DNA of 64,000 nt from Sulfurimonas sp. HSL-1716 (GTDB lineage: Bacteria; Campylobacterota; Campylobacteria; Campylobacterales; Sulfurimonadaceae): assembly GCF_039645975.1 (NCBI RefSeq), contig NZ_CP147918.1:372001-436000 (forward strand), in the 5' to 3' direction. Positions within the stretch are counted from its first letter, which is position 1. The number at the start of each line of letters is the position of its first letter. Under the pieces are notes generated by a model that worked only from the letters and a program-made list of their open reading frames with translations, searched no databases and was not told the DNA's origin. A program made the translations under genes and the position numbers. This document shows positions 20,115 through 26,797 of this stretch, piece by piece.

Positions 20115-20759
20115 ATGAATTTACTAAAAGCCACTTCCATATCACACTCATTTGATTATGAACTCTTTAAAGATATATCCCTGCATGTAAATGAGGGAGA
20201 CAAAATAGCGATCACCGGAGTCAGCGGCAGCGGAAAGTCTACGTTTTTGCATATACTTTCCACGTTGCTCGAGCCTCTTGAAGGAACGGTGGAGCTGCTC
20301 GGCAAAAGAGTGCATGATCTTACTCAAAAAGAGCTTGTGCATCTCAAAAGCAATGATCTCGGTATTATATTTCAGGCACATTATCTTTTTAAAGGCTTTA
20401 GTGCCATGGAAAATCTCGAAGTGGCTTCAATGCTCAGTCGTGAAGAGATAGACGAAGAGCTGCTAAAAAGACTCGATATTGCAGAAGTGATGTACCAGAA
20501 GGTGAGTGAGCTTTCAGGCGGACAGCAGCAGCGGGTTTCTATTGCCAGAGTCCTTACAAAAAAGCCTCGTATAATCTTTGCGGACGAGCCGACGGGAAAC
20601 CTTGACAACAAAACGGCGGAGGAAGTGATGAAGATCTTTGATGAGTATGTAGTTCATCATAAAGCTGCTTTAATCCTAGTGACGCATGATGAAAATATGG
20701 CAGACAGATGCGATAAGGTCTTTCATCTGGAAAACAAAGAGCTGCTGCAGGTAAAATAA
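20115..20759 (+). CDS. ABC transporter ATP-binding protein, LolD/FtsE-like
   Basis: A 214-residue ATPase with Walker [10 protein letters not shown] (35-43), signature LSGGQQQR and Walker B RIIFADEP followed by [12 protein letters not shown]. Sequence features match the LolD/MacB/FtsE group. No permease is adjacent; the next gene is fliR, overlapping by one base. The same orphan ATPase lies between tsf and fliR in C. jejuni. The partner is unknown: LolCE-like lipoprotein release, FtsX, or an unlinked permease are all possible. Confidence 0.85.
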
Positions 20760-21523
20760 TGAATTACGCGACAATATTTACCGATACGAATATTGTAGGG
20801 TTTTTGCTTCTTTTTTTTCGTTTTGCTTCGCTTTTTATAGCCGTTCCTATTTTTTCACATCAAAGTATACCGATCGTAGTAAAGACCGCTATGGCTTTTT
20901 TCTTTACAGTGGTCTTTTATGCATCTATGAAACCTATCGCATTTGAGATAAATGTTGTAAACCTGATCCTTGCCACACTCAGTGAACTGCTGTTTGGGCT
21001 AATCATCGGGATCGTATTGCAGCTGGCGTTTAATGTCATCACTTTTGCCGGCGGACAGATATCGTTTGTCATGGGGTTTTCCATGGCAAGCGCCATCGAT
21101 CCGCAGTCGGGAGTCTCTATGCCTATCGTCAGCCAGTTTTTGTCTTTGATGGCATTGATGATGCTTTTTTCGCTTAATCTGCATCATTGGATGCTTCTGT
21201 TTATCGATAAATCTTTAAGCGCTATCCCTCTTGGCGGTTTTATAATGAGCAAACATATCTTCAGCTACATAATTCACGCAGCCTCGAACATGTTTGTAAT
21301 AGGCTTTACCATCGCATTTCCGTTAATAGCATTGTCATGGATGGCTGACATAATCTTTGGTATGCTTATGAAGACAATGCCGCAGTTCAACTTGCTTGTT
21401 ATCGGATTTCCGATAAAGATAGTCGTCTCGTTCGCCGTTTTGATCGCTACCTTTGCATCGGCGATGCTGATATTTAAAATCCAGATGCAGGATTCGTTTA
21501 ACTGGCTGGGAACTCTTTTTTAA
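20759..21523 (+). CDS. fliR: Flagellar biosynthetic protein FliR
   Basis: A 254-residue protein with about six membrane helices, part of the FliPQR export gate of the flagellar type III secretion system. Recognisable segments are FASLFIAVPIFSHQSIPIVV, QISFVMGFSMASAIDPQSG and the C-terminal KIVVSFAVLIATF. Length is normal (about 255). The gene order ABC ATPase-fliR-acidic protein-gmk is that of C. jejuni. Confidence 0.93.
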   Translation: MNYATIFTDTNIVGFLLLFFRFASLFIAVPIFSHQSIPIVVKTAMAFFFTVVFYASMKPIAFEINVVNLILATLSELLFGLIIGIVLQLAFNVITFAGGQISFVMGFSMASAIDPQSGVSMPIVSQFLSLMALMMLFSLNLHHWMLLFIDKSLSAIPLGGFIMSKHIFSYIIHAASNMFVIGFTIAFPLIALSWMADIIFGMLMKTMPQFNLLVIGFPIKIVVSFAVLIATFASAMLIFKIQMQDSFNWLGTLF

Positions 21524-21620: not shown

Positions 21621-23363
21621 ATGAATATATTGCTGTTAAATGATAATCCTGTTGTCAGTAAACTTGTTACGTTGAGCGCTCAAAAAACCGGCAACAATGT
21701 TGAAATCATAAACAATGTAGACGATATCAAAGAAAGCACATATGATCTTGTCATAGTTGATGAAACTATCTATTCTCCTGAGATGATAAACGAATTAAAA
21801 GAAAAAATATCATATAAGCGTTCTATCTATATGCTTTCCCGCGGATCAGAAGGTATGGAAGGGTTTGACTATGAGGTCAAAAAGCCGTTTTTGCCGACGG
21901 ATCTCGTAGAGCTGTTGAGTATGGTCTCAAAGAGTCTTGCAGGCTCCGCTGCGGATGATGAAGATCTGGAACTTGAAAATATAGAAGAGATGGATTTAGA
22001 AGATGAACCGGAGTTTGATGAAAATGAAGATGATGATGGAGATGGCGATAGCGATGAGATCGAAGATCAGCCCAAAGAGGAAGAGGAGAATCTTGACGAG
22101 TTGGAACACGATGATCTAGATGATATCGATTTCGATCATGACGATCTGAATCTTGATGATATCGATTTTGATGAACTCGACGATGAGGATCAAAATGAAG
22201 AACTCACCGGATCCGTACTCGATCAAGATGAAGTACAAGAGGTAAAAAATCTTTTGGATGAAACCGAAGCGGATGAGATAACCGAAGAAGATGAAGAGTT
22301 TAGTGAAGATGATCTTAATCTGGAAGATTTGCAGCTTGATGAAGAATCTCTGGAAGATATAGAAGGGTTGGATGATCTCGACGAGCTTGATGAGCTTGAG
22401 GAATCTGAGGAATCTGAGGAATCTGAGGAAGAAGCGGAGAGCGTGATCGAAGATATCGATACGGAATCTGAAACAGAAGAGGAAACGCTGTCAAAGCTGC
22501 AAGAACTGGAAGAAGATCTGGATTTGAACGGGGACGATCTTGAAGAAACCCTGGAAGAAGAACAAGAGCCGGATGAAGAGATATTAGAAGATGAAAGCGT
22601 TGAAGAAGAGCCGGAGTTGGACGAAGCGGATTTTGAAGAAATAGCAGAAGAGGAACCAGAATCAGATGAAGAAGAACTTGAAAATATAACACAAGAGGAA
22701 GTAGAATCTGACGAAGAAGATTTTGATGAAACAGATGAAGAAGAGTCTGCCGATAATCCTGTTACACAAGAAGATGAGATAGAAGCGGAGTTGGATGAAC
22801 TGGATGATTTGGACGATGATCTGAATCTTGACGAGATGGAATCAAGTGAAGATGAGATCTTAGAAGAAGATAAAGTCCTGCAAGAGGATGATCTTCAGGA
22901 TGAAGAACTGGCCTTGGAAGAAGAACCGCAGCCGGAGACTGAAGAAACAAATGAGGACCTCGGTCTGGACGATTTGGAAAATAAGATAGAAAACGCCGTA
23001 AACGATTTAACACAAGAAGATTTAGACCAGGAGATAGATTTGGAAATAGATACCGAGATCGGCGATCTTTCATCTTTGGATGAAAGATCACTTAAGATTG
23101 CACTAGGAGAAGAGATAGACGAAGACGAGACCGTACAAGACGATGCTCAAGAGGAAACAGAAGCAAGCGGGATCGATATGCAGCAAGATGAAGAGATACA
23201 ACCCGATGAAGATACAGAAGAAACAGTAGAAAAATCATCCAACGAGGGGATAGAAGCTCTTAAAAACCTGCTAAAAGCATTAAGTGACGACAATATAGCG
23301 GCTTCGCTCAAAGGTGCGAATATAACCATAAATATTTCGTTCGGAGATAAAGTTGAAAAGTAG
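21621..23363 (+). CDS. Highly acidic protein with N-terminal receiver-like domain
   Basis: 580 residues in three parts. Residues 1 to about 110 look like a degenerate CheY-type receiver (MNILLLNDNPVVSKLVTLS, DLVIVDETIY, then a conserved-type lysine in VKKPFLP). Residues about 115-530 are an extremely acidic low-complexity stretch, close to half Asp or Glu, with short imperfect repeats of LDDIDFD- and ESEESEEE-type. The last 40 residues return to ordinary sequence (IEALKNLLKALSDDN ... ITINISFGDKV). It is positional counterpart of the acidic protein Cj1178c between fliR and gmk in C. jejuni. Function is unknown. The stop overlaps the gmk start. Confidence 0.8.
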   Translation: MNILLLNDNPVVSKLVTLSAQKTGNNVEIINNVDDIKESTYDLVIVDETIYSPEMINELKEKISYKRSIYMLSRGSEGMEGFDYEVKKPFLPTDLVELLSMVSKSLAGSAADDEDLELENIEEMDLEDEPEFDENEDDDGDGDSDEIEDQPKEEEENLDELEHDDLDDIDFDHDDLNLDDIDFDELDDEDQNEELTGSVLDQDEVQEVKNLLDETEADEITEEDEEFSEDDLNLEDLQLDEESLEDIEGLDDLDELDELEESEESEESEEEAESVIEDIDTESETEEETLSKLQELEEDLDLNGDDLEETLEEEQEPDEEILEDESVEEEPELDEADFEEIAEEEPESDEEELENITQEEVESDEEDFDETDEEESADNPVTQEDEIEAELDELDDLDDDLNLDEMESSEDEILEEDKVLQEDDLQDEELALEEEPQPETEETNEDLGLDDLENKIENAVNDLTQEDLDQEIDLEIDTEIGDLSSLDERSLKIALGEEIDEDETVQDDAQEETEASGIDMQQDEEIQPDEDTEETVEKSSNEGIEALKNLLKALSDDNIAASLKGANITINISFGDKVEK

Positions 23364-23967
23364 CGGAGCGATCCTTGTTCTCTCCGGTCCAAGCGGAGCA
23401 GGAAAAAGTTCTCTGATCAAGAAAGTTGCGCAGGAGATAGGTGCGCATTATTTTTCGATATCTACGACGACCCGTCCTATGCGTGAAGGTGAAGTAAACG
23501 GTATAGATTATCATTTCGCGGATATAGAAGAGTTTAAAAAAGATATAGAAGATGAGCAGTTCTTAGAGTATGCGCTGGTCCATGGAAACTATTACGGAAC
23601 ATCCGTGAAACCGGTGAAAGAAGCTTTAAAAGCGGGAAAACTCGTAGTCTTTGATATTGATGTACAGGGGAATATGTCCGTAAAGAACAGATTCGGCGAT
23701 ATCGCTACATCCGTATTTATTACTACACCCAGTTTAAAAGAGCTTGAACATAGGCTCAGGGTACGAGGTACCGACAGCGAAGAGATCATACAAAACCGTA
23801 TAAGTATGGCAAAGCGCGAAGTGCAGCGTATATCCGAATATGAGTTTTTCATCGTAAACGACGACTTGGATAAAGCGGCAAAACATTTGGTCACCATAGC
23901 CAAAGCGGCAAGACTGAAGATCCCGACATCGGAGATCAATAAGTTTATAATAGATTGGGAAGATTAA
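23353..23967 (+). CDS. gmk: Guanylate kinase
   Basis: 204 residues, GMP to GDP phosphorylation. P-loop GPSGAGKS at 12-19, then STTTRPMREGEVNGIDYHF for GMP binding and the lid region with NRISMAKREVQ. The start is TTG at 23353, eleven bases inside the previous gene, with GGAGAT at 23343-23348 at good spacing; no ATG fits. Confidence 0.95.
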   Translation: MKSSGAILVLSGPSGAGKSSLIKKVAQEIGAHYFSISTTTRPMREGEVNGIDYHFADIEEFKKDIEDEQFLEYALVHGNYYGTSVKPVKEALKAGKLVVFDIDVQGNMSVKNRFGDIATSVFITTPSLKELEHRLRVRGTDSEEIIQNRISMAKREVQRISEYEFFIVNDDLDKAAKHLVTIAKAARLKIPTSEINKFIIDWED

Positions 23968-25895: not shown

Positions 25896-25909
25896 GAAAC
25901 CTCTTCTTT
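25884..25909 (+). terminator. Candidate terminator at the argS/flaC junction
   Basis: GAAGAGG (25884-25890) and CCTCTTC (25900-25906) form a seven-pair stem with a nine-base loop spanning the argS stop, followed by only three T bases. Both genes end here convergently. Modest support. Confidence 0.35.
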
Positions 25910-26660
25910 AGCTGCCTAAAAGCTGAGAGACCATTGCAGAGTTTATACTGCTTTTATGGGCCTGAGCTATAAGCGAAGCATTGAGCATGATGTTTTGCTG
26001 CGCGAAGTTTGTCGACTCTTTGGCGATATCCGCATCGCTCAACTGAGATTTTGCAGACGACAAAGAACCTATCTGCGTAAGAATAGAGTTCGTCGAACTT
26101 TGTAAAGCATTCACTGTTGATCCTACGTTACTGCGCACGCTGTCCAGATTTTTCATAAATTCCGCGATACTGTCCTGCGAGTTTATATCCAGAGAATTTA
26201 CGTTGACGTTGGATATGTTAGCCGTTACGGTACTCTCACCCAGTGAAAACTCCATATTTCTGCCGAAAATCGCCTGTCCGTTGAAAGAGGCATTGTTTAT
26301 GCTGTCTTGCATGCTGGATTTGATAGCGTCGGCTTTGCTGCTGAGTGAAGCTTTTTGTTCACTGGAAAGAGCAGCACTGTTTGATTGTACCGACAGTACG
26401 TTAAGATCCTGTGCACTTTGAGACAGGCCGCTGAGAACACCGTCTGCGATCTGCATCATACTTGTCGCATCGGTCGCGTTTTGAAGACCTTGAGAAAGTG
26501 TACCGATATCGTTGCCAATAGCATCTGCTATGAGTGCCAAAGAAGCGTTGTCAAGCTGCTCATTTTTCGCACTGACTATTTTGCCCAGCGACGCTTCTGC
26601 GCTTTTTTTATGATCGTTTATGTACAATAAAGAGCTGCTCGTTGAATTATTTACTTGCAT
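25908..26660 (-). CDS. flaC: Short secreted flagellin-like protein FlaC
   Basis: 250 residues, close to C. jejuni FlaC (249) and much shorter than filament flagellins. The D0/D1 terminal helices are kept, the middle variable domain is absent, and the segments SINNASFNGQAIF and LDINSQDSIAEFMKNLDSVR align with FlaC. In Campylobacter FlaC is exported through the flagellum and is not a main filament subunit. The start at 26660 is fixed by GGAGGTTATC immediately upstream on the minus strand; an earlier ATG would lack an SD. It is a single-gene unit away from other flagellar genes. Confidence 0.82.
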   Translation of the reverse strand: MQVNNSTSSSLLYINDHKKSAEASLGKIVSAKNEQLDNASLALIADAIGNDIGTLSQGLQNATDATSMMQIADGVLSGLSQSAQDLNVLSVQSNSAALSSEQKASLSSKADAIKSSMQDSINNASFNGQAIFGRNMEFSLGESTVTANISNVNVNSLDINSQDSIAEFMKNLDSVRSNVGSTVNALQSSTNSILTQIGSLSSAKSQLSDADIAKESTNFAQQNIMLNASLIAQAHKSSINSAMVSQLLGS

Positions 26661-26797
26661 GATAACCTCCTTGTCTTTTATCAATAATAACGCTTTTAAA
26701 CTAAAATAATGTTTATTTTATCATATTAATTATCGATAAGGATAAATAATAAATGAAAATCATACATTAATTAAGAACATATGAAATCAAAAATAGT

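Follow-up and report, generated by a model that had tools for sequence, protein, structure and literature searches.

A probable chePep homologue between fliR and gmk in Sulfurimonas sp. HSL-1716 and the retention of its family in Campylobacterota genomes without FliM

The stretch of Sulfurimonas sp. HSL-1716 DNA analysed here (the window; 64,000 nucleotides, positions 372,001 to 436,000 of contig NZ_CP147918.1) belongs to a genome consisting of one contig of 2,257,566 bases, and shows a gene encoding a long acidic protein between fliR and gmk (Table 1). The gene order in this region is tsf, a gene encoding an ABC transporter, fliR, chePep, gmk, tatA and argS, with the neighbours named by inspection and by comparing loci with BLAST. 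Directly past argS, on the opposite strand, there is an ORF which is flagellin-like by eye (window 25908-26684). The chePep locus was examined in 40 genomes of the phylum: 31 without FliM and nine FliM-positive. The gmk gene adjoins chePep in 38 of the 40 loci, including 29 of the 31 FliM-less ones, and this linkage is the most constant feature seen. In 14 of these 38 loci there is a 4-nt overlap between the chePep stop codon and the first possible start of gmk, and in most others the two are close together. The order fliR-chePep-gmk is present in seven of the nine FliM-positive loci, and a fliR match was found at the chePep locus in none of the 31 FliM-less ones, 12 of which retain the tsf-ABC order with fliR missing. 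The adjacency of chePep and gmk may be an inherited gene order.

Table 1. Genes and protein features at the chePep locus, in window coordinates.
Feature	Residues	Position	Strand	Basis
fliR, upstream neighbour of chePep		20759..21523	+	
chePep homologue	580 aa	21621..23363	+	ORF with ATG start; family found phylum-wide
Receiver-fold head	1-108	21621..21944	+	AlphaFold2, Foldseek, VIA-align of compact relative, PDB profile, residue counts
Acidic tract	110-448	21948..22964	+	Predicted disordered except motif A; pLDDT mostly under 50
Motif A (VLDQDEVQEVKNLLDETEAD), conserved amphipathic helix in the tract	199-218	22215..22274	+	Family matrix, AlphaFold2
Helical island, ending in motif B (LxxLxExxLKxALGEE)	449-500	22965..23120	+	AlphaFold2, conservation
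C-terminal element: two helices and an alternating hydrophobic, strand-like end (LKGxxIxINIxF)	541-580	23241..23360	+	AlphaFold2, tail matrix
gmk, 11 nt overlap with the chePep stop from its first start, TTG (23353)		23353..23967	+	

An earlier note, made from the window sequence alone, had described the product as a receiver-like head, an acidic tract and an ordered C-terminal tail, and ORF composition, the AlphaFold2 model and the PDB profile agree with this division. In the AlphaFold2 model, built from the window's own family, residues 1-100 form a block with pLDDT 88-96 whose topology is beta1-alpha1-beta2-beta3-alpha3-beta4-beta5-alpha5, the helix between beta4 and beta5 not being called, and whose best Foldseek matches are receivers. 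VIA-align on the model of a compact relative also returned receivers, and this one domain fills its match list, the structure models covering whole proteins. A profile of 45 heads matched CheY/response-regulator chains in the PDB at E about 9e-6, with designed TIM barrels also among its matches, and Pfam Response_reg (PF00072) matched only four of the 45 heads, weakly (best 0.019), leaving the window protein unmatched. As modelled, the head adopts a genuine receiver fold.

Asp47, at the phospho-acceptor position, and Lys88 are present in 68 of 68 heads. When proteins are counted by genome type, with six that touch a contig edge included, Asp47 is retained in 78 of 79 from FliM-positive genomes and in 27 of 31 from FliM-less genomes; position 88 is Lys in 61 and Arg in 17 of the 79, and Lys in 30 of the 31. 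The PFLP residues are mostly retained in the FliM-less proteins. Position 7 is Asn in 65 of the 68 heads and position 8 is Asp in 18, the window protein included, and most members show N-x-N in place of the acidic Mg-binding pair after beta1 that belongs to Response_reg. The word degenerate, applied to this receiver from the window sequence, is therefore half right, since the acidic pair is replaced and Asp47 and Lys/Arg88 are kept. Ordinary receivers hold Mg2+ with this acidic pair; since the head has none, it more probably provides a surface for constitutive binding than a switch operated by phosphorylation.

The tract contains 73 Asp and 113 Glu (186 of 339 residues) and only four Lys or Arg. 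Its length varies in the family: proteins range from 143 aa (G195) and 149 aa (G176), which retain head and tail with the tract almost absent, to 690 and 850 aa. In a protein of family f3 (genome G054, locus L046, 2538-4136) the tract shows a long tandem IEEN run, which suggests length variation by slippage. The tract is thus as acidic as first described, but not featureless, since a helix at residues 199-217 and the island at 449-500 stand out. The former corresponds to motif A, modelled as a helix at 202-217 (block pLDDT 77 and 63), in which L200, D201, L211 and L212 are invariant across 48 aligned proteins. Among 67 proteins of other families, a matrix made from the window's family only recovered motif A in 40 (p<=0.01 relative to shuffled sequences); at that level none of the nine proteins of family f3 has it, and seven of 14 FliM-less proteins do. 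A loose pattern found it in 17 of the 31 FliM-less proteins, where shuffles expect 0.04. The island shows helices at 449-461, 465-475 and 488-494 (block pLDDT 54-78), and A494, G496 and E497 are invariant across the 48 aligned proteins; motif B was recovered at p<=0.01 in only 12 of the 67 proteins of other families. The test of both motifs covered proteins clear of contig edges (18 edge cases in 178 ORFs were left out) and omitted L117, a wrong ORF.

The structure prediction proposed in the earlier note for both ends gave order at the tail as well as at the head, with pLDDT 72-81 for residues 541-570. Conservation of the C-terminus, for which the earlier note proposed a check, was found in part: of 84 tails taken from other families or from FliM-less genomes, the tail matrix of the window's family recovered 45 (p<=0.01 relative to shuffled sequences), and 39 fail, among them those of f5, f12 and most of f7, which are yet alike by eye. 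The matrix tests for motif A, motif B and the tail are strict. In the model of the compact relative, of 279 aa, helices are placed at 135-150 (motif A) and 197-203 (the start of motif B), followed by two tail helices. A full-length profile of the 48 proteins matched no PDB sequence.

By position, make-up and distribution, the window protein is very probably ChePep. An N-terminal receiver-like domain, a defining feature of ChePep, is present in it by PDB profile, AlphaFold2, Foldseek and VIA-align, and so are the long acidic, Glu-rich region and the location beside fliR, as in C. jejuni; a CheZ partner is encoded in the same genome. Against Pfam and NCBIfam the whole protein belongs to no family (in Pfam, none at E<=10), and the assignment is made because chePep (CJJ81176_1193) and fliR (CJJ81176_1194) of C. 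jejuni have consecutive locus tags (PMC5438104) and the order fliR-chePep-gmk is found in the phylum; the adjacency to fliR that the earlier note claimed for C. jejuni is borne out with it. By sequence, other families of the phylum carry the protein too, and among named genomes the 80 loci retained bear Sulfurimonas, Sulfuricurvum or wider Campylobacterota-type labels. The protein HP0322 of H. pylori, a 'poly E-rich protein', is now named ChePep (PMC3561388). ChePep is reported to be restricted to Campylobacterota and important for the polar localisation and function of CheZ (PMC11237671), and in H. pylori the localisation of each of the two proteins needs the other (PMC5447363). Hyper-reversal is reported in a C. 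jejuni chePep deletion mutant (PMC9665402), a clockwise bias in H. pylori without ChePep (PMC11237671), and lowered gut colonisation by C. jejuni with chePep insertions (PMC5438104). In the literature available to us the protein is treated as a flagellar and chemotaxis regulator of two pathogens. The statement that no function had been described hence does not hold for flagellated species, and of the roles first suggested, that of a flagellar regulator agrees with the published work on reversal control (PMC9665402, PMC11237671, PMC5447363), a scaffold role is plausible, and a metal-binding or DNA-mimic role has no support in the ChePep texts available.

FliM, FlhA, CheA and CheZ are all encoded in the window genome. 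Its CheZ was found at E=5.7e-110 with a profile of the phylum in which this same protein is one row, and fell below the cut-off with Pfam CheZ (E=2.3e-4). The ORF shows the D-xxx-Q pair and is followed downstream by an ORF that resembles a U32 peptidase; a U32 peptidase is a reported neighbour of cheZ in Campylobacterota (PMC9321776). This CheZ (L065, 1033-1743) starts with MTQEELDALM and ends with DDIEALLAQFGANG, and by eye either end looks like a FliM-type or CheY-docking peptide.

The ChePep head was matched in 279 of 298 genomes of the phylum by single-sequence search (E<=1e-3), with one match in 271 and two in eight, the weakest of these matches (for example, G062, G197, G226 and G230) coming from that search alone; a profile adds 17 of the remaining 19 genomes. 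FliM is present in 265 of the 298, which leaves 33 genomes without it (20 listed and 13 by subtraction). FlhA and CheA matches were found in none of these 33, and four of four flagellate controls have both. Since Pfam CheZ is too weak in this phylum (over the cut-off in two of 298 genomes), CheZ was searched with a five-row phylum alignment, run on 47 genomes. No full-length CheZ was found with it in the 33 FliM-less genomes, where the only match was a partial one in G231 (E 1.4e-6), and 13 of 14 FliM-positive controls were positive, two of which (G000 and G074) had supplied rows. The remaining control, G029, has ChePep and no CheZ match. This genome belongs to family f8 (L272), in which FliM is divergent: it matches at E of about 1e-38 to 1e-41, where most families give about 1e-75 or lower. 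The ChePep of G029 carries motif A (L025). These features would agree with the flagellar replacement published for Nitratiruptor.

A ChePep-family gene was found by profile (E<=1e-5) in 31 of the 33 FliM-less genomes: six of them (G176, G190, G203, G218, G224 and G231) supplied rows to the profile and the other 25 gave none. Two FliM-less genomes belong to the window's own family, with a local GC of 0.56. The two genomes in which the gene was not found differ: G086 shows its gmk locus without ChePep, and G283 gave no match to ChePep or to gmk, which may reflect a gap in the assembly. In G086 (L280, 1489-3301) the region from the ABC gene to gmk has neither fliR nor chePep, and an ORF on the other strand is phospholipase-D-like by eye. 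Among the genomes with the gene, G203 has a shortened copy and no gmk match in the genome; at this locus (L249, 5867-8617) chePep lacks its 3' end and is followed by a long ORF in reverse orientation, MutS2-like by eye. In G217 chePep is present and the gmk match is on another contig. According to a 2022 survey, all chemosensory genes were lost in two lineages of the FliM-less type, and in its available text ChePep appears only in the reference list; in the open-licence literature we found no report of ChePep in flagellum-less species. The retention of the ChePep family without FliM, FlhA, CheA and full-length CheZ is new here, and the survival of the gene without flagella or CheA is beyond what the window sequence by itself could reveal.

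Selection on chePep was computed for eight FliM-less pairs, two of which (G026-G210 and G224-G218) were set aside with saturated or high dS. The six pairs with dS under 1 show whole-gene dN/dS of 0.08-0.21, with bootstrap upper bounds of at most 0.38; they are not independent, since three share G249, G250 and G139. In f1/g6 and in three genera of f4, chePep is under purifying selection. For the receiver, ratios were listed only for pairs with receiver dS <=2: they are 0.21-0.70 in the f3/g20 pairs (gmk 0.09-0.24), 0.87 in G207-G096 and up to 0.68 in other f4 pairs. The gmk ratio is 0.05-0.24 where computable; the flagellate control pair gave 0.12. Because the receiver ratios in f3/g20 and G207-G096 are well above those of gmk in the same pairs, constraint is relaxed there.

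As a whole, we consider it very likely that the window gene is chePep, with a product that most probably acts together with CheZ at the pole of the cell. By analogy with H. pylori and C. jejuni, the same CheZ-linked role is the most likely one in the window organism: ChePep and CheZ, the CheY-phosphate phosphatase, would be located at the pole, CheY-phosphate would be removed there, and reversals would be limited. Both ends, the receiver-like head as well as the C-terminal element, may serve in protein binding or self-association, and the long flexible acidic chain that joins them may carry motif A and the 449-500 island as additional docking elements. Since 31 of 33 genomes without FliM, FlhA, CheA and full-length CheZ keep ChePep, the family probably does something that requires none of these, and the partnership with CheZ is not the whole story. 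A second, flagellum-independent role is likely. In its fuller form, the reading that we hold probable is that ChePep has a core function which needs no flagellum, CheA or full-length CheZ, was kept after motility was lost or replaced in several lineages and is linked to gmk, and that its CheZ-localising role is later or additional.

A stronger version, towards which the evidence leans a little less, is that ChePep is primarily flagellum-independent, for example as a polar or cytoplasmic scaffold or as a factor tied to the gmk operon, and that the chemotaxis role was added through CheZ. It is favoured by the retention of the gene where FliM, FlhA and CheA are missing, by the low whole-gene dN/dS of the six close pairs, by the 29 of 31 loci with chePep-gmk intact and fliR absent, and by motif A, far more frequent in FliM-less proteins than in shuffles. 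Nevertheless, the phenotypes met in the published texts available concern only motility, chemotaxis, biofilm and colonisation, and the dependence of ChePep localisation on CheZ in H. pylori argues against an autonomous polar landmark; besides, the f3/g20 pairs and G207-G096 are under weaker constraint, the adjacency to gmk may be inherited, and the gene was lost in G086. That same weaker constraint in some FliM-less lineages, together with the overlapping or near stop and start codons, would suit a gene kept in flagellum-less lineages only for translational coupling to gmk, with a dispensable protein. We think this improbable: a short leader would be enough for coupling, the six closest pairs show purifying selection on the protein, Asp47 and PFLP are mostly kept in the FliM-less proteins, and G217 keeps chePep with its gmk match on another contig.

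Two further alternatives concern parts of the protein. Motif A could be a FliM-like CheY-binding peptide gathering CheY-phosphate for CheZ, as by eye it is like the FliM N-terminus of the same phylum (ILSQEEIDALL) and it sits in a partner of CheZ. However, it is kept in genomes where FliM, CheA and CheZ are gone (seven of 14 by matrix, 17 of 31 by loose pattern), so it cannot be only a docking site for CheY, FliM or CheZ, and it is absent from all nine f3 proteins although the f3 genome G054 has FliM, CheA and CheZ; we regard this explanation as unlikely, if slightly less so than the coupling to gmk. An acidic DNA mimic or metal buffer would agree with a tract whose net charge is strongly negative, but the ends are constant across tracts that range from almost nothing, in the proteins of 143 and 149 aa, to those of the 690- and 850-aa proteins, and no Pfam or NCBIfam family was matched, which makes such a role the least credible of all. 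If the family matters enough to have been retained by harmless, non-motile relatives, Sulfurovum for example, these allow the basic role of ChePep to be studied free of motility, and models in which ChePep places CheZ have to include a second partner. For pull-down experiments and structural work, the conserved helix, island and tail are defined pieces to start from.

Compared with CheY-like receivers, the head shares the fold, the Asp ending beta3 and the Lys-Pro after beta5, and differs in the N-x-N which replaces the acidic pair in most members, the variable Thr/Ser position, the beta4-beta5 helix that is not called and a length of about 105 aa. PopZ-type polar hubs may be comparable, with a linker that is acidic and disordered and that joins an interaction end to a possibly self-associating C-terminal end, whereas the localisation of H. 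pylori ChePep depends on CheZ. With the ChePep proteins HP0322 and CJJ81176_1193, the window protein has in common that it is an acidic, poly-E Campylobacterota protein beside fliR, with mostly one match per genome and with CheZ, CheA and FliM encoded in the same genome. The likeness is one of position, make-up and distribution, and the window protein differs in its tract, which is of mixed Asp and Glu and in which two conserved elements are described here, and in that its homologues are also found without flagella.
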